The notes beneath the pieces are model-generated. The model made no database searches. It worked only from the letters and a program-made list of their open reading frames with translations, and had not been told where the DNA came from. A DNA stretch of 64,000 nt from Granulimonas faecalis (GTDB taxonomy: Bacteria; Actinomycetota; Coriobacteriia; Coriobacteriales; Atopobiaceae), in NCBI RefSeq assembly GCF_022834715.1, contig NZ_BQKC01000001.1, positions 1,896,501-1,960,500 on the forward strand, read 5' to 3'. Positions 40,340-64,000 of the stretch are shown here, one piece after another (the stretch's first letter is position 1; every line of letters begins with the position of its first letter). A program made the translations under genes and the position numbers.

Positions 40340-40395
40340 GGGACAAGGCCAAGAACGGCCGAGAAAAACGCCGGTAAACCGGCCCCGCGCAAGCA

Positions 40396-40472: not shown

Positions 40473-42569
40473 TCACTCCTCAATAGCCCACTCCCGGCCG
40501 GTCTTGGCCCAAGCGTTCCAGTCCTGAACGTCGCCCGTGATGGCCCACTCCTTGATGGCCGTGTACACATGGGCGTCGCCCACCACGGAGGTGGCGTCGT
40601 AGAGGCGCGTGCGCTGCTCGTCCTCGCCGATCTCGTCCACGGCGCGGCCCCAGTCGCTGTAGTTGGGGTCGCCCATGGCCTTGAGCAGCGTGGCCGGCAG
40701 GTCGCGCTGGCTCACGGGAGCATGGCTCACCTTGAGGGGCTGGGCGGCCTGCTCGGCCGTCTCGGCGGGCTTCACCAAAAGGAAGGGGCTGGAAGGCTCG
40801 CTGATCTCATCGGCCAGGTACCACTCGCCGTGGTCGGCGGTGACGATCACGGTGGTCTGGTCGTAGATGCCCAAGCGCCTGAGCTCGTCGAGGTAAGCCT
40901 CCACGCCGAGAAGGGCGCCGCGGGTCTGGTCCACGTAGTCGGTCTGGCCCTCCTCCACGCGCTTGCCGTCGGCCGTGAGCGTGATCGGGTAGTGGGAGCC
41001 CATCATGTGGATGAGGCGACAGGTGCCCGTCTCGCCCTCCACGTCGTCGCCAAAGGAAAGGCCCTCGGAGCGAACCGCATCGATATAGGCCTCGTCATCG
41101 AGCTTGAACGGCGTGTTGGAGCCGTTGCCCGAGCTGTCGCCCATCAGGGTGCCCACAACGTCACCGCTGTAGAACCAGAACGGCGGCTTGGCTGCCCAGG
41201 GGCTCTCGCGGTAGAGCGAGCACTTCCACAGCTCGGTTACCGTGGGCCAGAACGGGGCAGAAAAGTCGATGCGATGGATGTTGCCCACGCGCCCCTGCAG
41301 GGGACCCACGCCCTGGGGCAGGTCGGTGGCGTAGACGTTCACGCCAAAGCCCAGGCTGCCCATGGCGTCCACGAGGTTGTTGTCGCCGGAGTACCACTCG
41401 GTGATCTTGGCGTTGCCATAGGCGGCGTCACTCTCATCGAGGTGCTGGCCCGTGATAAGGGAGCTCATGGCAAAGCGAGTGGGGATCATGACGCCGGAGG
41501 AGTTGGCGTAGCGGGTGAAGCCCGTGAACCCGTCAAGCGCATCGGGATAGCGCTCCAGCACCTGGTCGAGGTACTTGTTGTCAAGCGTGTCGAGGACGAA
41601 CATCACCACGTTGTCCTTGTCGGAGAGCTCGCTTATGCCCTCCGTGGTCACGAGGGGCTTGCCGTCCCAGACCGTGCTGCCGGAGCCCAGCTCGTCGAGG
41701 GCGCGCTGCTGGTCGCTCCAGGTGGAGGCGAGGCCCACCGACTGGACGAGCACGAGCACCACCGAGAGCACACAGGCCATCGTCTTGGCCGAGCGGCCCT
41801 TGGCCAGTGCGAACGGGACCGCGCCGGCCACAAGAGCGATCCACACCAGAGACGAGACCACGGTGATCTTGGTGTAGTCGTCCCAAGGCACCGGCTTGCC
41901 GTCGGCCACGGGCAGGCCCGTGTTGAGGAAGGTCGACTGCACGAAGCAAGCCACGGCAAGGGCCGCCACCACCGAGACGGTCACCGTGAAGGCGCGGCCC
42001 CGCACCAGGGACAGGAGCAGCGCGCCTACGACGATGAGCACGAGGGCAAAGACGACCAGCGGGCCCGCCACCGGGCCTGCACCAAAGACGAAGCTGTCGA
42101 GGCTCGTGGCCACGATCTCCAAGGGCGTCACGACGCCCAGGGTGTAGACGAGGCAGCCCCAGGCGAGCAGGGCCAGCAAAAAGCGGGGCAGCCATCGCAC
42201 GTTCTGGGGGCGGCGAGGGCCCACCAAGGCATCGTCGGCCGTGGCGGCGGCATCGGCGGCGGCGAGGAGCTCAGACGCGCCAGGCGCGAACGGGTCGATC
42301 TCGTGCACCTCGGGGTCGCGTACCTTGTCGCGGTTCTCATCGATCTTGAGCAGGGCGAACACCCGGCGGCGCACGCGGCGCCACACGACGCCGACCACGG
42401 CCGAGAGGGCCACGGCCACGCCGGCCAGGGCCTGGATGGTGTAGGTGACCACGGACGGGTCGACGTAGGCGAAAGCCGGCGTGGGGGCCAGGGCCAGGGT
42501 CACGCAGGCGAGGGCCCAGGCGCCGTCGAGGGCGAGGCGGGCCAGAGTGCGGCGGGTCTTAGGCCTCAC
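40473..42569 (-). CDS. LTA-synthase-like sulfatase-family membrane protein
   Basis: 698 residues. An N-terminal membrane half has about six helices (first AWALACVTLALAPTPAFAYV; others around residues 130-300). From ~320 there is an alkaline-phosphatase/sulfatase-fold domain: VVMFVLDTLDNKYLDQ (metal site), SGVMIPTRFAMSSLITGQ (probable nucleophile Thr), MMGSHYPI and VIVTADHGEWY (metal-binding Asp-His). Family members such as LtaS transfer glycerol phosphate from phosphatidylglycerol, or move other phospho-groups. GTG start at 42567-42569 (CCAAGGAGGGAAGCC before it) overlaps the YidC-TagF gene by 11 bases, so the two are coupled and likely act on the same polymer. Confidence 0.82.
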   Translation of the reverse strand: MRPKTRRTLARLALDGAWALACVTLALAPTPAFAYVDPSVVTYTIQALAGVAVALSAVVGVVWRRVRRRVFALLKIDENRDKVRDPEVHEIDPFAPGASELLAAADAAATADDALVGPRRPQNVRWLPRFLLALLAWGCLVYTLGVVTPLEIVATSLDSFVFGAGPVAGPLVVFALVLIVVGALLLSLVRGRAFTVTVSVVAALAVACFVQSTFLNTGLPVADGKPVPWDDYTKITVVSSLVWIALVAGAVPFALAKGRSAKTMACVLSVVLVLVQSVGLASTWSDQQRALDELGSGSTVWDGKPLVTTEGISELSDKDNVVMFVLDTLDNKYLDQVLERYPDALDGFTGFTRYANSSGVMIPTRFAMSSLITGQHLDESDAAYGNAKITEWYSGDNNLVDAMGSLGFGVNVYATDLPQGVGPLQGRVGNIHRIDFSAPFWPTVTELWKCSLYRESPWAAKPPFWFYSGDVVGTLMGDSSGNGSNTPFKLDDEAYIDAVRSEGLSFGDDVEGETGTCRLIHMMGSHYPITLTADGKRVEEGQTDYVDQTRGALLGVEAYLDELRRLGIYDQTTVIVTADHGEWYLADEISEPSSPFLLVKPAETAEQAAQPLKVSHAPVSQRDLPATLLKAMGDPNYSDWGRAVDEIGEDEQRTRLYDATSVVGDAHVYTAIKEWAITGDVQDWNAWAKTGREWAIEE

Positions 42570-44577
42570 GGCTTCCCTCCTTGGGGTCGGTGGCCGCAGG
42601 GGCGACGGCGGTGTCGCCCGCGGCAGGCTTGGCGCCAGCCGCGCCGGTGCGGCGGGCCTGGGCGGAGAGCACGGCGTCGAGCAGGTAGCGCCCGGCCACC
42701 TCGCCGCCGTGCCCGTGATTGAAGACGAAGCCGTCGTAGACGTCCTCGATGACGCGGCGCCAGTGCTCGGGCCGGGCCACCATGGAGCGGGCCACCTCCC
42801 CGAGGGAGCCGATCTGGTCCACGGCCACGCTGCGGCCGATCTGATTTCGCAAGGAGATGTCGGTGGGCTCGAGCCCGATGTCGCGCCAGTCGGGGTTGCC
42901 CACCTTCATCGGCGTGTCCACGAAGACCGTGGGACGCCCCGTGGTGAACGAGTACTCGCACGAGATGGACGACCAGTCGGTCACGAGCACGCTGGCGTCA
43001 AAGATGGACCCCTCGCCGGAGAAGTCCTCGAACGACACGGAGCCCGAGACGTCGGCGAGGCGCCCCTTGAGGGCCTCCCAGCGGGGCCCGTAGCGCTTGA
43101 CGTACTCGGGGTGCGGGCGCACCACCACGGAGAAGCCCGCGCCCACGAGGGAGCGCACGGCCTCCTCGCCGCAGAGGTCGAGGAGGTTGTCGTCCTGCCA
43201 CGAGGGGGCCACGAGGGCCATGGGGCGGTCGGCCGGGGCCGCCGCGACCGGGGCCTCCTTGAGGTGGCGGCCCCGCACGGGGGCCGGGCGGCGGGCGGCG
43301 AACTCGGCGCGCTCGCGGTCGAGCAGGTCGTAGCCCACCGGCACGAGGTTCTTGGCCGGCACGCCGCGCAGCCGCTCGGAGGCGCGGGTCTCGGCCACCT
43401 GGTGCGGGCCCACGCAGAAGATCGTGTCGTAGTGGTCGTGGCAGTTGGCCGCGCCCACGAGGTGCATCGAGGTCATGTGGTGCAGCATGTCCACGTACTC
43501 GATGTCCTGGCGCACATAGGAGCGCTTGAGGTAGTAGTTGTCGAGGTCGGCCAAGGAGGCCACGAAGACGTCGCAGTCCATCTTCATCATGAGGGTGATG
43601 AGGCGCTTCTCGCCCACGTAGTAGGGAATGAGGCGCGGCTGGGTCTCGTGGATCTTGAAGACCTGGTCGTCGGGGTCGTTGGTGATGTAATGGATGCGCA
43701 CGTCGGAGTGGGCCAGAAGCCACTCGATGGCGCCGCGGAAGTACTTGTAGAAACCGCTGCCCTCGGAGTAGAAGACGAGCGACTTGTCGATGACGTCGTT
43801 GAAGCGGGCGATGTCGGCGCGCTCGCGGCGGGCCAGGGGGTCGGGCTTGAAGCGCGAGCCGGCGCGGCGGTTGAGGTTCTCGAGGGCCGCCAGCTCCTCC
43901 TGGGAGGCGCGGAGGGCCGGGTAGTCCACGTGCTTTCTGGGGTCCATGATCGCGTTGCAGGCCAGCTGCACACCGATGGCCATGAGGTTGGAGCAGATCC
44001 AGTAGAACACCATGCCGCTCGCCACCGACACGCCCAGGATGGCCGACAGCGCGATGGACAGGCCGTTGGTGGAAGCCTTCTCGGCGGCGGACTGCTCGCG
44101 CTGAAGCGGGTTGATGTGGTTCTGCGCCAGGCCGAGGGCGGCCGAGGAGAGCGCGGCCAGCACCGGCATGGCCCACGACCAGCCGCCGTCGACAAGGGGC
44201 ACGAGGCCGAGGAGCTCGGTACCGGGGGCACCCGAGGCCGTGATGGAGCGAATGACGTCCACGAGGCCGAAGAGAATGAGAACCTGGATGGCCAGGGGCA
44301 GCATGGAGAGCAGCGGGTGGTAGCCCTTCTCCTTGTAGAGGGCGTTCTGGGCCTCCCCGATGGCCTCGCGGTCGCCGAAGTACTTGACCTTGAGGGCGTT
44401 CACCTGGGGCAAAAGGCTCACCACGAGCAGCGAGTTCTTCTGGCACCACAGCGAGATGGGCATGAGGATGACCTTGGTCACCACGGTGAACAGGGCGATG
44501 GACACCCACCAGTTGCCGGTGAGCGCGTAGATGGGGTCGAGGACGGCCCCAAAGATGTCGGCGAGAATCTGCAGCAC
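42559..44577 (-). CDS. YidC/Oxa1-like membrane domain fused to TagF-like glycerophosphotransferase
   Basis: 672 residues. Residues ~1-235 are a YidC/Oxa1/Alb3 domain with five helices (GNWWVSIALFTVVTKVILMP, SMLPLAIQVLILFGLVDVI, VFYWICSNLMAIGVQLACNA); the groove Arg of YidC proteins is Lys35 here. A linker with AALENLNRRAGSRFKPDP leads to ~290-650, a CDP-glycerol glycerophosphotransferase domain (FCVGPHQVAETR, LVAPSWQDDN, VVVRPHPE, LVTDWSSISCEYSFTTGRPT). The tail is Ala/Pro-rich. The likely job is polymerising or priming poly(glycerol-phosphate) at the membrane. The GTG start at 44575-44577 (AAGGACCGCA before it) is chosen because a good promoter overlaps a longer ATG start. Coupled to the sulfatase-like gene. 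Confidence 0.85.
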   Translation of the reverse strand: MLQILADIFGAVLDPIYALTGNWWVSIALFTVVTKVILMPISLWCQKNSLLVVSLLPQVNALKVKYFGDREAIGEAQNALYKEKGYHPLLSMLPLAIQVLILFGLVDVIRSITASGAPGTELLGLVPLVDGGWSWAMPVLAALSSAALGLAQNHINPLQREQSAAEKASTNGLSIALSAILGVSVASGMVFYWICSNLMAIGVQLACNAIMDPRKHVDYPALRASQEELAALENLNRRAGSRFKPDPLARRERADIARFNDVIDKSLVFYSEGSGFYKYFRGAIEWLLAHSDVRIHYITNDPDDQVFKIHETQPRLIPYYVGEKRLITLMMKMDCDVFVASLADLDNYYLKRSYVRQDIEYVDMLHHMTSMHLVGAANCHDHYDTIFCVGPHQVAETRASERLRGVPAKNLVPVGYDLLDRERAEFAARRPAPVRGRHLKEAPVAAAPADRPMALVAPSWQDDNLLDLCGEEAVRSLVGAGFSVVVRPHPEYVKRYGPRWEALKGRLADVSGSVSFEDFSGEGSIFDASVLVTDWSSISCEYSFTTGRPTVFVDTPMKVGNPDWRDIGLEPTDISLRNQIGRSVAVDQIGSLGEVARSMVARPEHWRRVIEDVYDGFVFNHGHGGEVAGRYLLDAVLSAQARRTGAAGAKPAAGDTAVAPAATDPKEGSREA

Positions 44578-44626
44578 TGCGGTCCTTGTCTTTGCAGGGT
44601 GATCGAACCCCAAAGGGGCCTTGGAA

Positions 44627-44655
44627 ATGATACGTCCCCGCTTGTAACTCGACAA
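44627..44655 (-). promoter_or_regulatory. promoter of the YidC-TagF operon
   Basis: TTGTCG (44650-44655), 17 bases, TATCAT (44627-44632) on the minus strand, starting transcription about 40 bases before the GTG start. Confidence 0.6.
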
Positions 44656-44685: not shown

Positions 44686-45633
44686 TTAGGAGGACGCGCG
44701 CCTGCCCGGGACGAGCTGGCTCCAGTCGTCGGCCGAGGCGAGCACCGTGCCGCAGAGAATGGCTATGCAGCACAGCACCTCGACGGGGCTGGGGACGTGG
44801 CCGAGAAGCACCATGCCCAGCACCACGGCCCAGGCGGAGTAGGAGATGTTGGCGGCCATGGCCTTGGCGGCGCCGATTTTGTCGATGCCCTTGTAGTAGA
44901 AGAGGTACGACACGGTGCCCGCCAGCGCCGCTCCCGCCACCACGGCCGTGGCCGGCGTGGCAAAGACCTGGGCGGCAAAGGGCCACGCCGCGAAGAGCGG
45001 CAGGATGACCACGAGGTACACGAGGCCCGAGGTGGTCTCGCGGATCTGCAGCGCCGTCTCGTTGTCCACGGAGTCGTCGCGCATGCCCCACGCCAGCAGC
45101 ACGGCCTCGCTTCCCCAGCCCACCACGCAGGCGAGGGCGGCCGCGATGCCCACCATGGCGTTGCCGGGCATCTCCATGTCGCTTGCGGCCGCGCCCATCA
45201 CGATGATGGCAGCCATGGCCACGGCCAGGGCGACCCAGCGCTTGGGCTCCATTTTCTCCTTGAGCGCGAACACGGCCAAAAAAGCGCCAAAGGCGGGATA
45301 GAAGCTGGAGATGATGGCCGTGATGCCCGGGCCCAGCTCGTTGATGGCCACCACGTAGCCCGTCATGCCGAAGGGGCCGCCGAGAAGCGCCGCTGCGGCC
45401 ACCACCTTACCGCTGCGGGTCCTGAGGGCCGCCACGGTGTCTTTAAGGCGCCCGCGCACCGCCATGAGCAAGAACATCCACACCGCGCAGAACACGTCGT
45501 GGAACGCGGCACTCACGATGGCCGCGAAGGCCACGGCCTCGGCAGTGCCCACATAGGGGGCCATCGAGAGGGCGATGCCCAAGATAACGGTGTCGAGGCC
45601 CCACAGAAGGCCGCTGGCAAGCCCGTATCCCAT
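44686..45633 (-). CDS. DMT-family permease, LicB-like (choline or related amine uptake)
   Basis: 315 residues, ten transmembrane helices in two EamA repeats (drug/metabolite transporter superfamily). Typical segments are GLLWGLDTVILGIALSMAPY at the N-terminus and LVYLVVILPLFAAWPFAAQV later. In phosphocholine loci the equivalent gene is licB, the choline permease. It lies 41 bases after the LicC-LicA fusion gene, so choline uptake fits, though DMT sequences alone do not reveal substrate. ATG at 45631-45633 has AGAAGGAAAGGAACC before it. Confidence 0.8.
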   Translation of the reverse strand: MGYGLASGLLWGLDTVILGIALSMAPYVGTAEAVAFAAIVSAAFHDVFCAVWMFLLMAVRGRLKDTVAALRTRSGKVVAAAALLGGPFGMTGYVVAINELGPGITAIISSFYPAFGAFLAVFALKEKMEPKRWVALAVAMAAIIVMGAAASDMEMPGNAMVGIAAALACVVGWGSEAVLLAWGMRDDSVDNETALQIRETTSGLVYLVVILPLFAAWPFAAQVFATPATAVVAGAALAGTVSYLFYYKGIDKIGAAKAMAANISYSAWAVVLGMVLLGHVPSPVEVLCCIAILCGTVLASADDWSQLVPGRRASS

Positions 45634-47660: not shown

Positions 47661-48800
47661 TCAGGCGCAGGGGTAGGCGGCGTCGAGCTGGGCGGCCGTA
47701 TGAGCCCAGGTGAAGCCCGTCTCCGCGCGCTCGCGGAAGGCGGCACTGCGACGGGCGCGCTCCTCGGCAGGCAGCACGGCCAGACGCGCAATGGCGGCCG
47801 TGACCTCGTCGGCAGAGGCGCCGCAAATCTCGCCCCAGCCGGAGTCCCCCAACACGTCGGCCACGCCGCCCACGGGGCAGATCACCGGCAAACAGCCCCA
47901 GGCGCCGGCCTCGAGCAGGACCGTGGCCATGCCCTCCGAGCGCGTAGGCGAAACGAAGCAGTTGGCACAGCCAAAAAGCGCCGAGACGTCCTCGCGGCCC
48001 AGACGGCCCAAGAGACTCACGTTGGGCAGGTAGTCGGCCACGGCGCGGATATGGTCCTCCTCGGGACCGGCGCCGGCCATGACAAAGGAGACCTCGGGCA
48101 AAAGCCGCGCGGCGTCGAGAACGGCCAAGGGCCCCTTCTCGGCCACGAAGCGACCCACGAAGCAGGCCATGAAAGCGTCGGGCGCAATGCCCAGCTCGGC
48201 ACGGAAATCGCGGCCGGAGGAGCCATCGCGAAAAGCCGCGGCGTCGATGGCGTTGTTGATCACCACGTCGGTCTTGATGCCAAAGTGCTCCAGCCAGGAA
48301 CAGGCCGCCAGCGACACGCCGGCAAAGACGGGCCGGGCCGCACGGGCCCGCGCGGTGACCAGGTGTTCCCAGCGCTTCACCACGGCGTCTGCAGCAGGGA
48401 TGCCAAAGGACAGGTGCGCGCTGCCGTGCTCCAGCATGACGGCCGGGGCGCCCTTTTCGGCGGCAAAGCGCAGGCCTTCGAGGGAGTGCGGGTAAAAGCG
48501 GGTGTTCACGAGCACGCGATCCACGTCCTCATCGAGCAGACGTCCCCAGATGCGGCGGTACGCGGCATCTTTGAGCGTCACGGGAAGGCGGCCGTCGAGC
48601 AGCTGCGCAGCCGGAAGGCGCACCACCTGGAAGCCGTCGCGGTCCTCCCGGGCCGGCGCGCCCTTACGCGCCGACGCCACCACGCTCACCTGGTGGCCCT
48701 CGTGCACGAGCTCGCGGGCCAAGTTGTCGCTGAAGAGCTCCACACCGCCCATGGAGGGCAGGTACTGGGCCGAGAAGATCGCGTAGTGGTGAGGCGCCAT
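47661..48800 (-). CDS. glycosyltransferase family 4 protein
   Basis: 379 residues, GT-B fold. N-terminal GT4 signature FSAQYLPSMGGVELFSDNLA; C-terminal nucleotide-sugar site FVGRFVAEKGPLAVLDAARL and SPTRSEGMATVLLEAGAWGC (E-x7-E). Retaining glycosyltransferase, probably for a cell-surface glycan made with the adjoining lic genes; donor and acceptor cannot be read. ATG at 48798-48800 has CGGGAAAGG upstream. Divergent from licD. Confidence 0.9.
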   Translation of the reverse strand: MAPHHYAIFSAQYLPSMGGVELFSDNLARELVHEGHQVSVVASARKGAPAREDRDGFQVVRLPAAQLLDGRLPVTLKDAAYRRIWGRLLDEDVDRVLVNTRFYPHSLEGLRFAAEKGAPAVMLEHGSAHLSFGIPAADAVVKRWEHLVTARARAARPVFAGVSLAACSWLEHFGIKTDVVINNAIDAAAFRDGSSGRDFRAELGIAPDAFMACFVGRFVAEKGPLAVLDAARLLPEVSFVMAGAGPEEDHIRAVADYLPNVSLLGRLGREDVSALFGCANCFVSPTRSEGMATVLLEAGAWGCLPVICPVGGVADVLGDSGWGEICGASADEVTAAIARLAVLPAEERARRSAAFRERAETGFTWAHTAAQLDAAYPCA

Positions 48801-48931
48801 GGAGAAGAACCTTTCCCGTATGCTGCCGGCACGCGCCGGCAGCCACCCATCGTGAACCCTGAACGAAGGGTATGGTACAGAGAAACCCGTTGCCCTTGCC
48901 GAGCACCACACCTCTAACACCGGGAGAAGCC

Positions 48932-49774
48932 ATGCCTCACAAGCCCTACCCCGAAGGCACCCTCGAACGCCTTCAGGCAGAGATGACCGAAATGCTCGCC
49001 GTCTTTGACGAGGCGTGTCAGAAGCTGGGGCTCACCTACTTCATCGACGGCGGCACGGCCTTGGGCGCCGCGCGCCACGGCGGCTTCATCCCCTGGGACG
49101 ACGACGTGGACGCGGCGATGCCCGCGGCCGACTACCGTCGTTTCCTGGCCGAGGGCGCCTCTGCGCTGCCCGAGGGCTACTCGCTCCATACCTGGGAGAA
49201 CACGGAGCGCTTCCCCACGCTGTGGGCCAAGATCTGGAAGGACGGCACCCGCTTTGCCGACGCCCCGGCCGTGGAGGCGGGAATGGGCCAGCCCATCTTC
49301 ATGGACGTCTTCCCCTCCGTTCCCCTCGACGCCGACCCGGGCATCGCGGACCGGCAGCGGCGTCGCATGCTGTTCTGGCAGCGGCTCAGCTACCTCAAGT
49401 TCATCGCGCACCCCAAGAACGTGCCGAGCGCCGCGGCCCAGGCTGCCTGCGTGGCGGCGCATGGCGTGCTGTCCTGCGTGCCCCAACGCTTCATCGCCCG
49501 CGAATTCGAGCGCTCCTGGCGCTGCGAGACCCCCGGCGACCTGTGGATAGACCCTTGCTACGCGCAGTACGATCCCATGCCCGTCGACTGTCTGCTGCCC
49601 TGCCAGCGGGTGAGTTTCGACGGCATCGAGACCTGGGCGCCCCACGACCTCGACCGCTATCTCACCCGCATGTACGGCGACTGGCACAAGCTCCCGCCCG
49701 AGGAGGAGCGCTACACCCACGCGCCCGAAGTGCTGGACTTTGGCGACGGTGTCAACGTGGCGAAGCGCAGGTAG
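48932..49774 (+). CDS. licD: LicD family phosphotransferase
   Basis: 280 residues. The hallmark segment FIDGGTALGAARHGGFIPWD followed by DDVDAAM is intact, as are the later conserved FMDVFPSVPLD and C-terminal WAPHDLDRYLTRMYGDW. LicD proteins transfer phosphocholine from CDP-choline (or a similar CDP-linked group) to a sugar of teichoic acid or another glycan. With the choline permease and kinase/cytidylyltransferase nearby, it is the probable final enzyme. ATG at 48932-48934 follows CGGGAGAAGCC. A TATGGT box lies ~60 bases upstream. Confidence 0.9.
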   Translation: MPHKPYPEGTLERLQAEMTEMLAVFDEACQKLGLTYFIDGGTALGAARHGGFIPWDDDVDAAMPAADYRRFLAEGASALPEGYSLHTWENTERFPTLWAKIWKDGTRFADAPAVEAGMGQPIFMDVFPSVPLDADPGIADRQRRRMLFWQRLSYLKFIAHPKNVPSAAAQAACVAAHGVLSCVPQRFIAREFERSWRCETPGDLWIDPCYAQYDPMPVDCLLPCQRVSFDGIETWAPHDLDRYLTRMYGDWHKLPPEEERYTHAPEVLDFGDGVNVAKRR

Positions 49775-55985: not shown

Positions 55986-57812
55986 CTAACCCAGGTAGCC
56001 GTGGAGCGCGGCCACGAGCCTGTCGTCGTCGGCCCGGTCGCGCACGGCGATGCGCACGAACTGGCGCCCGTCGCGCACCACCTTGGCCGAGAGGTCCTTG
56101 ATGAAGAGCTCCCGCTCGCACAGCAGGCGCTCGGTGAGCTCGGAGGCCGTCATGCCGCCCTCGAGCTCCACGAACAGGTAGTTCGCCTGGCTCGGCATCA
56201 CGCGCAGGTGCGGCACGGCGGCCAGCTCCGCGGCGAAGCGCGCCCGCTCGGCGCGGAGCTCGTCGAGGCTGCGGGCGTAGTCGGCCTTGTACTTCTCGGC
56301 GACCTGCAGGTAGAACTCCGCGAGGGAGTTGATGTTCCAGATGGCCACGTCGCCCTTGAGGGCGTCGACGAGCCCCTTGTCGGCCGAAGCCGCCACACCC
56401 AGGCGCAGGCCCGGCACGCCGTAGCTCTTGGAGATGGACTTCACCACCACCATGTGGGGGAAGCGCGCCAGGCGCCCCTCGTCGAGGAAGCTGCTGCCCG
56501 GCTCCTCGGCGAAGTCCGCGAACGACTCGTCGTAGACCAGGCGCACGCCGTTGTCCTCGCACCACTGGGCCACGCGGCAGACGTCGGCCACCGGCAGGTA
56601 GTTGCCCGTGGGGTTGTCGGGGTTGATGAGCACGAGCTGGCGCACGGGGTGCTCGGAGAAGAAGGAGACGATGTCGTCGGCCGTGTAGGCGAAGTCCGGG
56701 TCAGAGGGCACGTAGGTCACGGCGTCGGCGGCGCGGCCGCGGTTGGGGTACTCCTCGAACGTGGGACGGATGTGGCCGCAGGGGCCCTCGACGGCGGCGT
56801 CGGGGTTCTCAAAGAGCGCCTTGATGAGCTCGGCAGCGCCGTTGCCCACCACCACGCGGTCCTGGGACACACCGAAGTTCTTGGCCGCGAGCAGGGAGTT
56901 CACGCGCATGCCCGAGGGATACTGGGTCACGAGGGTCTCGAAGCTGGCCTTCATCTCGTCCATGAGGCGCTTGGGCGGGTAGAACGGGTTCACGAGGTAG
57001 CAGAAGTCCACGAGGTGCGGATAGCGCCAGTAGCCGCCGTAGCGCGAGGCCACGAGGCGGGTGCGCACCTCCTCGCCCACGGCGAACATGGACTCGGCGA
57101 TGTCGAGGTCCTGCAGGTCGTCGATCTCGTACCACTTCTGGCCGGTGAGGCGCTTGGCCAGGATCTCGCTCGTGTCGACCATGGTGATGACGCGGAGCAC
57201 CTGCTCGTAGTACTCGTTGTTGCCCAGGGCCTGGCTGTAGGCCTTGAGGAACGGCACGTAGACGTTGCGCGAGAACTCCTTCGAGAACTTGTAGATGTTG
57301 ACCGTCTTGTAGTAGCGGTCCATGTCCTCGAAGCGGAACCGCTTGCCAGGCACGAACGACAGGATCGAGTCGTCGTCGTCCAGTGTGACCACGGTGCCGT
57401 CCATCCAACTCTCGTACCTGTCGACGAGGGCGAGGGTGGGCCTGGGGTCGTCCACGAGCTCGGAGAGCACGCCCTCCTCGAAGATGAGGTCGCTCTCCAG
57501 GAGGAGGGTGTCGTCCTCCTGGAGCTGCCCGGCGGCCAGGGCCAGCGAGTAGATGTTGTTGGTGCGGTCGTAGACGGGGTTGTCCACGAACTCGATGGGC
57601 GTGGCCACGTCGAGGGTGGAGATGTAGTCCTTGAGCCTGCCGGCCTCGTAGCCCACCACGACGACGATGCGCGAGAGCCCCAGGCGGTCGAGCTGGGTGA
57701 GGGCGCGCTCGATCATGGTGACGCCGTTGACCTTGACCATGCACTTGGTGTTGTGGGCGGTGAGCGACTTCAGGCGCTTGCCCATGCCGGCCGCGAGAAT
57801 CAGTCCTTGCAT
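55986..57812 (-). CDS. nucleotidyltransferase-aminotransferase fusion (PntC-AEPT-like)
   Basis: 608 residues. Residues 1-~240 are a sugar-phosphate-type nucleotidyltransferase (LILAAGMGKRLKSLTAHNTK; LLLESDLIFEEG; ends YEIDDLQDLDIAES). Residues ~250-608 are a class I/II PLP enzyme of the HisC/CobD type (VVVGNGAAELIKALFENP, LINPDNPTGNYL, VYDESFADFAE, VKSISKSYGVPGLRLG with the PLP Lys). The same architecture is described for PntC-AEP transaminase, which cytidylylates 2-aminoethylphosphonate, but no PEP mutase is in the window. A phosphoserine-decarboxylase-like use to make CDP-ethanolamine is the other option. ATG at 57810-57812 has TGAGGAGAGG before it. Confidence 0.85.
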   Translation of the reverse strand: MQGLILAAGMGKRLKSLTAHNTKCMVKVNGVTMIERALTQLDRLGLSRIVVVVGYEAGRLKDYISTLDVATPIEFVDNPVYDRTNNIYSLALAAGQLQEDDTLLLESDLIFEEGVLSELVDDPRPTLALVDRYESWMDGTVVTLDDDDSILSFVPGKRFRFEDMDRYYKTVNIYKFSKEFSRNVYVPFLKAYSQALGNNEYYEQVLRVITMVDTSEILAKRLTGQKWYEIDDLQDLDIAESMFAVGEEVRTRLVASRYGGYWRYPHLVDFCYLVNPFYPPKRLMDEMKASFETLVTQYPSGMRVNSLLAAKNFGVSQDRVVVGNGAAELIKALFENPDAAVEGPCGHIRPTFEEYPNRGRAADAVTYVPSDPDFAYTADDIVSFFSEHPVRQLVLINPDNPTGNYLPVADVCRVAQWCEDNGVRLVYDESFADFAEEPGSSFLDEGRLARFPHMVVVKSISKSYGVPGLRLGVAASADKGLVDALKGDVAIWNINSLAEFYLQVAEKYKADYARSLDELRAERARFAAELAAVPHLRVMPSQANYLFVELEGGMTASELTERLLCERELFIKDLSAKVVRDGRQFVRIAVRDRADDDRLVAALHGYLG

Positions 57813-58624: not shown

Positions 58625-60433
58625 TCACAGGGTTGCTCCCTCCTGGGCGCGCTCCGGCGCCCCGATGCGTCTCTCTGCGGCGGCCGAGAAGGTCTTGGCC
58701 GCCTTGTACCAAACGTAGAGCCACTCGCCCACGGGGTTTCCCATGGCCTCCTTGTACATGGCCCACACATACCAGTACCAACCCACCACGGCCACGGCCG
58801 AGAGGAACCGCGCCTCCTCGGCGGCGGTGGCGGGGCGCCCCAGGTAGACCGGCAGGACGGCCAAGGCCTCGTCGACGGAGTAGCCCGAGCCCTGGGCCAC
58901 AAAGTTGCCCAAGTCGCAGAACGGGTCGCCCATGGCGGCGTACTCCCAGTCGACGAGGCGCATGGCGTCGTCGGTCACCAGCAGGTTGGGGCCGTAGAAG
59001 TCGTTGTGGCAGAGCACCGGGTCGCCGGCGTCCGCGGCCATGGCGCGGGCGAGCACGGCCACGCGGGCGGCCAGGCCGTCAAAGTCGCGCGGCAGCGGGT
59101 AGTCTCGGCGGCGGAGGAGCCCGGCGATCTTGGTGCCCTCCTCGAAGAAGTCGAACGACCAAGGCGACGTGGCGCCGCTCCCGTGGAGCCGGCGCACGAG
59201 GGCCAGGGCCCGCCCCACGTCGCGGGGGTCGCGGTAGTCGAAGTCCCGGCAGCCCTCCACGAACCGCGAGACCTTCCAGCCCTGCTCGGGGTCCTCGAAG
59301 ACGTAGGTGTCGTCGAGGCCGAGGTCGCGGGCCACAGCCAGGGCGTGGGCCTCGGCGGCGCGGTTGACGATCTGGTCGGTGCCGGCGCCGGGGTGGCGGT
59401 AGATGTAGCGGGTGTCCCCCACGGAGAAGACCGTGGAGAGGTTGGTGAGACCGGCCGAGACGGGCGCGAGGCCGCGGATGTCGTCGCGGGGGCAGCCCAG
59501 GGTGGTGCAGATGTTCTCGAGGATCGCGGAGTCCACGTTGGCGAAGAAGTCGTGGTCGAAGGCCATGAGGTCGCCGAGGTAGTCGAACTCGAGGACCGCG
59601 CCGGCCGGCAGCTCCTCCACGGCCATGGGGAGCTCGGCGGCATGCTCGGCGAAGACCTGCTCCCAAAGCTTGGGCGCCGTGGCCGGGAGGGCGTACTCCT
59701 CGCCGAGGATGGCGAGGTAGCGCTCTGCGAAGGCACGGTCGAGGTAGGCGGGGCCGAGGAGGTAGAGGCCGCCATCGCCGCCGCGGGACACGTGCGCGAT
59801 GTGCCCCTGGGGGTCGACCGTGACGACCTGCTCCTCGGTGGGACCCGTGGCGCGGCAGACCGAGAAGACCGACTCGTAGCGGTAGGGGCGGAAGGGGTTC
59901 TCGCAGAAGTACTCGTCGGACGACACCACGTAGGAGTTGCCGAGCCAGGCGCGCGCGGCCCAGACCGAGCCGTTGTTGTTGCGGGCGGCGTGGTCGGGGT
60001 TCTCCACGAGGGTGACGCCGAAGTCCTCCTCCAGGTAGAAGAAGGCCTCCTTCATGTGGCCCACCACCACGACGACGTCCCGGACGCCGGCCTCGCGGAG
60101 CTGGCGGATCTGCCGCTCCACGAGCACCTCGCCGCGCACCTCGAAGGCGGCCTTGGGGCGCTCGAAGGACAGCGGCGACAGGCGCGTGCCGGCACCGGCC
60201 GCGAGAATCACGGCGTTGCGCACGCGGTAGGGCTCGAGGGCGGCGAGACCGTCCGGGGTGGGGGCACCATCGGGGGCGAGGAGGCCGTGGGAGCGGAGGG
60301 TGCGCGCGGCCTTGTTGACCGAGCCCACCGAGACGCGGCCGGCCGCCGCAACGGCACGCTGGGGGCGGGGGCCGTTGAGCGCCGCGTCTTGGAGCACGGC
60401 GAACTCGTAGCGGGTGAGGGTGCGCGGGGACAG
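58625..60433 (-). CDS. second winged-helix + LicC-like + LicA-like kinase fusion
   Basis: About 602 residues, same three domains as the protein at 45675-47447: winged helix ~1-70 (AAAGRVSVGSVNKAARTLRS), nucleotidyltransferase ~70-300 (VILAAGAGTRLSPLSFERPK; VVSSDEYFCENPF), choline/ethanolamine-kinase fold to the end (HND at 476-478 in LCHNDFYGPN; VDWEYAAMGD from 494). The best start is CTG at 60431-60433: TTAAGGAGAGACCC is ideally placed, and alignment with the paralogue begins there; the GTG at 60479-60481 lies inside the operator-like repeat. Heads the second cluster. The substrate need not be choline. Confidence 0.85.
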   Translation of the reverse strand: MSPRTLTRYEFAVLQDAALNGPRPQRAVAAAGRVSVGSVNKAARTLRSHGLLAPDGAPTPDGLAALEPYRVRNAVILAAGAGTRLSPLSFERPKAAFEVRGEVLVERQIRQLREAGVRDVVVVVGHMKEAFFYLEEDFGVTLVENPDHAARNNNGSVWAARAWLGNSYVVSSDEYFCENPFRPYRYESVFSVCRATGPTEEQVVTVDPQGHIAHVSRGGDGGLYLLGPAYLDRAFAERYLAILGEEYALPATAPKLWEQVFAEHAAELPMAVEELPAGAVLEFDYLGDLMAFDHDFFANVDSAILENICTTLGCPRDDIRGLAPVSAGLTNLSTVFSVGDTRYIYRHPGAGTDQIVNRAAEAHALAVARDLGLDDTYVFEDPEQGWKVSRFVEGCRDFDYRDPRDVGRALALVRRLHGSGATSPWSFDFFEEGTKIAGLLRRRDYPLPRDFDGLAARVAVLARAMAADAGDPVLCHNDFYGPNLLVTDDAMRLVDWEYAAMGDPFCDLGNFVAQGSGYSVDEALAVLPVYLGRPATAAEEARFLSAVAVVGWYWYVWAMYKEAMGNPVGEWLYVWYKAAKTFSAAAERRIGAPERAQEGATL

Positions 60434-60472
60434 GGGTCTCTCCTTAAGGTGCGGGCAGATGCGGTGCGGGCC

Positions 60473-60513
60473 GATGTTCACGATAACATGAATATAACTT
60501 ACAGGTGAACATC
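60473..60513 (-). promoter_or_regulatory. operator-like inverted repeat of the second fusion gene
   Basis: GATGTTCAC and GTGAACATC are perfect 9-bp arms (60505-60513 and 60473-60481 on the minus strand reading) with 23 bases between, centres 32 bp apart, about three helical turns. The AT-rich spacer (GTTATATTC, GTTATC) probably holds the -10. The half-site TGTTC matches the choline-locus operator. Confidence 0.65.
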
Positions 60514-62705: not shown

Positions 62706-64000
62706 CTACGTCGTGCGCCTCCTCACCGCCACGGCCACCGTCGCCGCCACAGCCACGGTCACGCACGCGCCCAGGGTGACGGCGCCGTCCACCGTGCGGT
62801 CGCCGGTCACGGGCAGCACGGCGAGGCCGCGCAGGACCCGGCGCACCGTCCTCTCGGTACGGCTCGTCGTGGTGCCGCCGGTGCCGGGAAGCTCGGCCTC
62901 GGGCCGCACCGCCTCGATGCGGGCCGAGCCGCCCGCCTCGATGGCGACGGTGCCGCCGGCCTGGGGGCCGCCCTGGGCGTCGGGGTCCTTGGGGCCGAAC
63001 CCGCTGCCCGTGGCGCTCGCCTTGTTGACCACCTCGCCGCCGTCGGCCGGGACGGACAGGTCGCAGGCGTAGGTCACGCGCCACACCTCGCCACCGGCCA
63101 CGTCGCCCACCGGCACCGTGAGCTCGCGGGTCTCAGGGTCGTAGAGGGCGTGGGGGAGGCGCTCCCGGGAACCGTCGGGATGCTCGAGCCACAGGGAGGT
63201 GGTCACGAGGGACAGGCCGTCGGGCAGCACGTCGTGGACCGTGACGTCCTCCCACACGGTGCCCACCATGGCGTTACCCACCTCGATGGTATAGGTCACC
63301 TGGTCGCCCTCGTAGAAGCCGCCGTCCGAATCGTCGTCGGCCACGGTCTTGGAGAGGGAGGGCTGCGGCACGGCGAACTTGATCCAACCGGCCGGGAACA
63401 CCTTGTCGGAGCTCTCGGTGGGCACCTCGCGGTCCTCGGGCGTGTCGCCGTCCACGGTGGCCACGTTGCCCACGTCATGGGCGCCCGGGGTGGCATCGTC
63501 CACGGCGGAGCGGGCGATGGAGCCCTCGAAAACCACGATGGCGCTGGAGCCGCCGGGGATGTCGCCCACGGGCACCGTGAGAGTGTGGGTGTCCTCGTCG
63601 TAGACGTCGGCGGAGTCCAGGGACCCGGTGGTCCCATCGGCATAGGTCACGCGCACCGAGGAGCGGTCGAGGTCGATGCCGGCGGGCAGCAGGTCTGTGG
63701 CCCGGGCGTTCTTGAGCAGGGAGTCGGGCACGTCGTTGGTCACGGTGACGGTGTAGCGCAGCACGTCGCCCACCTGGGCATCCACGGCGTCGCCTCGGGT
63801 GAGGTCGGTGACGGCCTTGGTGACCGTGGGCTCGGGGTCGTCGGGCAGGACCTGGTCGCCGCCCTTGGGAAGGGTCTCCTCCACCTCCGCGGGCACCGGC
63901 GAGCCGTCGGGGTTGGTGCCCGACGCCTGGACTGGGATGGTGACCGGGGGAACGGCGTCGGGGTCGTTGGGCGGGTCGAGGACCTTGCCGTTCACGGTGG
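62706..64000 (-). CDS. LPxTG surface protein with DUF11-like repeats, 5' end outside the window
   Basis: The last ~431 residues are present. Two tandem beta domains of the conserved-repeat/DUF11 type each begin with an xTKAVTD/LSKTVAD strand and continue DVLRYTVTVTND...LLPAGIDLD and DQVTYTIEVGNAMVG...VLPDGLSL, with VPVGDIPGG and VPVGDVAGG after them. Such domains form stalk-like or pilin-like proteins, often with isopeptide bonds. The C-terminus has two sorting motifs: LPGTG, and 25 residues later LPVTG followed by a hydrophobic helix and RRRTT. The reading frame is open to base 64000, so the start lies beyond the window. Confidence 0.85.
   Translation of the reverse strand, partial: TVNGKVLDPPNDPDAVPPVTIPVQASGTNPDGSPVPAEVEETLPKGGDQVLPDDPEPTVTKAVTDLTRGDAVDAQVGDVLRYTVTVTNDVPDSLLKNARATDLLPAGIDLDRSSVRVTYADGTTGSLDSADVYDEDTHTLTVPVGDIPGGSSAIVVFEGSIARSAVDDATPGAHDVGNVATVDGDTPEDREVPTESSDKVFPAGWIKFAVPQPSLSKTVADDDSDGGFYEGDQVTYTIEVGNAMVGTVWEDVTVHDVLPDGLSLVTTSLWLEHPDGSRERLPHALYDPETRELTVPVGDVAGGEVWRVTYACDLSVPADGGEVVNKASATGSGFGPKDPDAQGGPQAGGTVAIEAGGSARIEAVRPEAELPGTGGTTTSRTERTVRRVLRGLAVLPVTGDRTVDGAVTLGACVTVAVAATVAVAVRRRTT

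Follow-up and report, generated by a model that had tools for sequence, protein, structure and literature searches.

Members of the YidC/Oxa1 family are known as protein insertases, with a C-terminus located in the cytosol, and canonical TagF is a peripheral enzyme. Evidence that the insertase fold also acts on lipids is recent: in a preprint, purified E. coli YidC is reported to scramble phospholipids in vitro (PMC10491306). This known scrambling concerns ordinary phospholipids, and it may be incidental. Many Gram-positive bacteria have two YidCs (PMC8595059). Wall glycosylation is carried out by three components, a cytosolic charging enzyme, a flippase and an extracellular transferase, as described in PMC8035078. 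Among the titles and abstracts of open-licence papers searched on YidC, insertases, teichoic acids and Olsenella/Atopobium, none was found to deal with a YidC-TagF or YidC-LtaS fusion.

The window, that is the whole 64,000-nucleotide stretch of Granulimonas faecalis DNA analysed here, contains a reading frame joining a YidC/Oxa1 domain to a TagF-like domain, next to a gene for an LtaS-like membrane phosphotransferase (Table 1). The YidC insertase fold may here carry building blocks of surface polymers across the membrane. Our main reading, to which we give a probability of roughly 45% for the mechanism as a whole, is that of a three-part machine which puts cytidylyl-activated phospho- or phosphono-alcohols on the cell surface, the groove of the YidC part being the flippase.

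The fusion gene, its partner and the separate yidC

Both domains were found by Pfam in a single open frame, PF02096 at 95.4 bits over residues 49-234 (curated cut-off 35) and PF04464 at 24.3 bits (cut-off 22.1). The frame remains open over a longer interval (42559-44655, minus strand). The GTG at 44577 is the right start: it has AAGGA upstream at a suitable spacing, a good ribosome site, and the alignment with most relatives begins near residue 26-27 of this longer frame. A promoter scan upstream of the fusion start gave one weak match, no better than shuffles. PF04464 was detected at E 0.01 in all 16 members of the TagF-like alignment A3, the RPHP and TDWS motifs of the domain are invariant, and no PF04464 match other than the fusion was obtained in the window genome.

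A model of the fusion was produced with AlphaFold2 from a 22-row alignment, made of the window and 21 of 24 loci (all but the tri-domain L007 and two truncated ones, L014 and L023), and reached a mean pLDDT of 83.3. It matched B. halodurans YidC 3wo7 with a Z of 18.5 and an rmsd of 2.7 over 199 aligned residues. For the enzyme domain, the top Foldseek match was TagF 3l7k (E 1.5e-9); its Z of 20.7 was on a par with that of UDP-GlcNAc 2-epimerases, which also have the GT-B fold, so that the enzyme assignment rests on PF04464. The Pfam matches confirm the earlier note, which had read from the letters a single frame that starts at 44577 and runs from a five-helix YidC domain into a TagF-type one.

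Table 1. Coordinates (whole-stretch numbering) and assignments of the features discussed.
Feature	Position	Strand	Basis or remark
Terminator-like hairpin after the LtaS-like gene	40370..40383	-	consensus match only
LtaS-like membrane phosphotransferase	40473..42569	-	profile A2, fold, overlap with fusion gene
YidC-TagF-like fusion gene	42559..44577	-	672 aa, GTG start
TagF-like (Glyphos_transf, GT-B fold) domain, about residues 263-642	42652..43791	-	PF04464; Foldseek 3l7k
YidC/Oxa1 domain, about residues 1-219	43921..44577	-	PF02096; fold matches 3wo7 (model residues 1-219)
Lys35 codon, groove position	44473..44475	-	Lys in 58/58 distinct fusion YidC domains
LicB-like EamA transporter	44686..45633	-	PF00892; ATG, GGAAAGGAA upstream; same strand as, and upstream of, the fusion
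LicC-LicA fusion: nucleotidyltransferase + choline-kinase-like kinase, N-terminal winged helix	45675..47447	-	PF12804, PF00483, PF01636, PF01633, PF13412
GT4 glycosyltransferase	47661..48920	-	PF00534
LicD phosphotransferase	48872..49774	+	PF04991
YidC-TagF-LtaS genomes G044, G056, G156, G181, G235	loci L059, L064, L063, L060, L062

The first 11 bp of the LtaS-like gene are shared with the 3' end of the fusion gene, and AAGGAGG lies just upstream of its start. The partner profile A2 matches LtaS 2w5q (E 2.1e-10), and the partner model has the fold of membrane enzymes of the alkaline phosphatase superfamily (PbgA, MCR-1, EptA, LtaS), with LtaS 2w5r among the matches, not at the top. The protein has a DHG motif and membrane helices of its own. 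Its N-terminus carries AYVDPSVxTYTIQALAGVAVAL, nearly invariant among LtaS-like partners; at another locus (L019:9917-10210), a separate 98-residue protein, for which Pfam gave no match, resembles this N-terminal region. Among the 40 distinct YidC-TagF genes with more than 1.5 kb of sequence downstream, 31 have an LtaS-like gene within 600 bp. The nine others are those of L004, L012, L019, L021, L022, L026, L074, L159 and L160, and in L159 the LtaS-like gene is about 2.2 kb off.

A separate yidC in the rpmH-rnpA region, which the earlier note had proposed to look for, was found in the window genome: a 257-residue frame lies after what we take, from the protein sequences, to be rpmH, rnpA and yidD, and before a presumed jag. 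The presence of this gene means that the fusion copy is specialised, and the idea of a housekeeping insertase with an extra domain was rejected. An unfused YidC was likewise found in 48 of the 49 genomes carrying the system; the sole genome where no second YidC was found, G098, is a 140-contig assembly.

These results bear on the possibility that the YidC part is an insertase or chaperone dedicated to the polytopic LtaS-like partner, acting in cis when fused to it, and otherwise co-translationally from the overlapping gene. The 11 bp overlap would suit such a role, as would the retention of the YidC fold, of the groove and of the C1 hairpin with its invariant positions. We nevertheless find it distinctly improbable, given that nearly all carriers have another YidC at hand, that the YidC part of YidC-LtaS proteins would need to insert its own chain, and that we know of no tie of YidC to a cytosolic TagF-like enzyme.

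Distribution and domain arrangements

A survey across Coriobacteriia, suggested by the earlier note, detected the fusion in 37 of 246 genomes, belonging to two families only (the G226 copy is in pieces). When 346 genomes were drawn from the whole phylum, seven Coriobacteriia members and one stand-alone TagF-like protein came up, and no others. In the family to which a Lachnospiraceae MAG belongs, 10 of 250 genomes also have the fusion, some copies being in pieces or partial, as do 5 of 391 genomes in the class of that MAG. Such a recurrence of the fused frame in Coriobacteriia and Clostridia shows that it is genuine, and excludes a sequencing error joining two genes, the artefact that the earlier note had envisaged. 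One genome, G200, has two YidC-TagF genes (L069 and L070), with an LtaS-like gene after each. Carriers of this spare YidC, built into enzymes of surface phosphate polymers, include bacteria of gut and mouth.

A tree was built from 61 YidC domains, comprising 35 of the 58 distinct fusions, 23 housekeeping-type copies and 3 YidC-LtaS proteins. All sampled fusion YidCs, whichever of the two phyla they come from, group in a single clade (100/100), and the housekeeping copies of both phyla fall outside it; the placement of the YidC-LtaS clade is unreliable, its stem amounting to 3.3 changes per column. One could also think of an insertase that moonlights, or of a second housekeeping one, to which an unrelated passenger has been joined. 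The two YidCs of many Gram-positives lend this idea some substance, but it is hardly credible in view of this single distinct clade, of the patchy distribution over Coriobacteriia, and of the recurring linkage to the same two enzymes.

Three arrangements of the domains were found in the two phyla: a YidC-TagF gene with an LtaS-like gene, a single YidC-TagF-LtaS gene, and a TagF gene with a YidC-LtaS gene. The second is a frame of 1357-1401 residues, present in five genomes (Table 1). In Clostridia, a direct fusion of YidC to the LtaS-like domain is frequent, the TagF-like protein being encoded by a separate gene; these YidC-LtaS proteins match PF02096 and PF00884, the latter at or just under its cut-off. 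Fifteen of the 17 stand-alone TagF-like genes with room around them adjoin a YidC-LtaS gene, a count made without L023 and L093, two truncated rows whose contigs end before the upstream part. Of the 17, two do not follow the rule: L146, where phosphonate genes on the same strand separate the TagF-like gene from YidC-LtaS, and L157, where neither partner is nearby. The pairing is also seen in three of seven YidC-LtaS loci (L164, L165 and L170, two of them in Coriobacteriia). In the four others (L166, L167, L168 and L169), the stretch read contains no TagF-like gene.

Like the domain identities, the gene overlap and the origin in a single clade, this three-way recombination is established at the level of sequence, and it provides what we consider the strongest evidence for a joint action of the three domains. 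That the three act together seems to us very probable.

Groove residues and neighbouring genes

The earlier note had remarked that the conserved arginine of the YidC groove is replaced by Lys35 in the fusion. The residue is correctly named and invariant (Table 1). Arg was found in 18 of 18 housekeeping YidCs of Coriobacteriia, Lys, Tyr and Glu in 3, 1 and 1 of five unfused clostridial YidCs, and Asn, Gln, Ser and Thr in 16, 2, 1 and 1 of 20 YidC-LtaS proteins, which have no positive charge at this position. Since three of the five unfused clostridial YidCs have Lys as well, Lys35 does not stand as a hallmark of the fusion, and it was dropped as a mark of altered function. According to a mutagenesis study, Lys is functional in the groove, and the charge can be dispensable beside an aromatic residue (PMC8920935). 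In an alignment by eye, Trp193 of the fusion is at the apparent position of the aromatic residue making the charge dispensable in E. coli. Given the variation among clostridial YidCs and this mutagenesis, the groove pattern is no proof of a lost insertase function, and with Trp193 in place it is still compatible with that function.

Other positions are more telling than the groove residue. In the C2 loop (residues 153-162), N153, N156, L158, Q159, E161 and Q162 are fusion-specific invariants, and serines 174 and 178 of TM4 are invariant in the fusions, where Coriobacteriia housekeeping YidCs have Met. The C1 hairpin is also kept, with its invariant positions.

It is possible, if somewhat unlikely, that the YidC part is an anchor only, a five-helix scaffold keeping the TagF-like and LtaS-like enzymes together, with a groove that plays no role in transport. 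Domain recombination would fit any scaffold, the groove charge differs between arrangements, and a peripheral enzyme such as canonical TagF could be so anchored. However, five helices with a groove are a costly way of anchoring an enzyme, and the LtaS-like partner comes with helices of its own. YidC is moreover retained in all three arrangements, and positions of the groove region and of the C2 loop are invariant across two phyla.

Upstream of the fusion, the window contains a set of lic-type genes and a glycosyltransferase gene (Table 1). Relatives of LicC-LicA were found in 35 of 37 fusion genomes versus 42 of 209 others (Fisher p 1e-18), and, within the family of the window, in 20 of 22 versus 13 of 39 (p 1e-5), figures that are descriptive as the genomes are related. 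A second LicC-LicA paralogue, 46% identical to the first, is encoded at 58628-60481 (minus strand), and a surface-protein-like ORF with DUF11 repeats at 62709-63995 (minus strand). No match to TIGR01518 (TagD) was obtained at E 0.001 in the window genome. CDP-glycerol made by TagD is thus not supported as the donor, which would be another compound than the canonical one, and we call the enzyme TagF-like rather than TagF.

In five other loci (L146, L152, L156, L157 and L160), phosphonate genes lie beside the system. Three of them (L146, L157 and L160, by Pfam for the last two) have a PEP mutase with a cytidylyltransferase domain, a phosphonopyruvate decarboxylase and an iron alcohol dehydrogenase, a set that would make CMP-hydroxyethylphosphonate. 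At L146:5582-13558, the genes for YidC-LtaS, a nucleotidyltransferase-cytidylyltransferase-PEP mutase fusion, the iron alcohol dehydrogenase, the phosphonopyruvate decarboxylase and the TagF-like protein are all on the same strand. Two relatives, Olsenella uli and Atopobium rimae, were already known for phosphonates and cytidylyl activation (PMC6697681). In the window, a frame of about 607 residues (55989-57812, minus strand) fuses a nucleotidyltransferase to a CobD/HisC-like aminotransferase, and perhaps makes a CDP-amino-alcohol; a similar fusion is found about 3.4 kb from the system in L061, and a 605-residue gene with a nucleotidyltransferase start, whose first half was scanned, adjoins it in L164. 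Among 123 Clostridia neighbours analysed by Pfam (of 199 frames, anchors and others being left out), glycosyltransferases and nucleotidyltransferases were the commonest, and the rest was mixed. The common theme of the neighbours is a cytidylyl-activated phospho- or phosphono-alcohol.

The link to surface-polymer synthesis put forward in the earlier note is supported by these data. Most of the functional information is carried by elements absent from that note, namely the LtaS-like partner, the recombination of the three domains and the cytidylyltransferase context.

Proposed mechanism and comparison with known systems

In a first step, the TagF-like domain, expected in the cytosol as is the C-terminus of YidC, would take the activated group of a CDP- or CMP-donor and attach it to an acceptor linked to lipid. 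The fused YidC fold would next hold the lipid product and move its polar head to the outer leaflet through the hydrophilic groove, acting as a coupled scramblase or flippase, and not as a protein insertase. Finally, the LtaS-like partner would transfer the group or chain outside. We infer the cytosolic and extracytoplasmic placements, the chemistry and the substrates, as well as the passage of a lipid-linked intermediate through the groove; the flippase activity is suggested by the scrambling reported in PMC10491306. The 'lipid-linked substrate scaffold' of the earlier note comes close to this reading, itself conjectural; its other proposal, that the YidC part may insert polymer-export proteins, is neither favoured nor disfavoured by the data. 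More generally, and more tentatively, a branch of Oxa1/YidC could have become a flippase devoted to phospho- or phosphono-polymer intermediates that are bound to lipid, with, in some species, charging, translocation and transfer performed by one polypeptide (YidC-TagF-LtaS).

A conventional flippase was searched for as PF01943. In 19 of 20 genomes, no match lies closer than 20 kb to the fusion; 18 of the 20 have such a protein somewhere in the genome, and two have none at all. In G200, one lies about 12 kb from the second fusion copy. A TacF/Wzx flippase beside the operon was discarded for the window genome, whose three PF01943 matches are more than 60 kb away. The lack of such a protein close to the fusion favours the flippase reading; the PF01943 proteins elsewhere in most genomes, and the loci with no LtaS-like or TagF-like gene nearby, speak against it.

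A natural YidC paralogue placed between cytosolic and extracytoplasmic phosphotransferases offers a genetic system for testing directly whether an insertase fold may have been selected for moving lipids across the membrane. It is also a candidate for the missing step after cytidylyl activation in phosphocholine and phosphonate decoration, in Coriobacteriia and Clostridia.

Compared to YidC/Oxa1 insertases (PF02096; B. halodurans YidC2, E. coli YidC), the fusion has the same fold, five-helix core, charged groove residue and cytosolic hairpin, but a TagF-like domain replaces the C-terminal tail, the C2 loop and TM4 have residues of their own, and the protein is separate from the housekeeping copy. 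With TagF/TarL-type CDP-alditol phosphotransferases (PF04464), it shares the PF04464 match, the GT-B fold and the invariant RPHP and TDWS; it differs by its junction to YidC, and by a genome lacking TagD, with LicC-LicA or phosphonate genes nearby instead. The partner resembles LtaS/EptA/PbgA membrane phosphotransferases (PF00884-like) by the DHG motif and by an extracytoplasmic domain matching LtaS in sequence and the superfamily in fold, and is distinguished by its AYVDPS N-terminal region and by its recombination with, or location beside, YidC and TagF-like domains.

With the Lic-1 phosphocholine pathway and type IV teichoic acids of S. pneumoniae, the locus has in common homologues of LicA, LicB (as an EamA-family transporter), LicC and LicD. 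The S. pneumoniae flippase is TacF (PMC13385700), whereas here no PF01943 protein is near the locus and the YidC three-part set is present. Charging, translocation and transfer would follow the same three-part logic as the CsbB-GtcA-YfhO system of transmembrane glycosylation (PMC8035078), here with all three parts genetically linked, covalent fusions among them, phosphotransferases in place of glycosyltransferases, and a YidC fold where that system has GtrA/Wzx. Each part is of a known family; what appears to be new is the way they are combined around a YidC fold.
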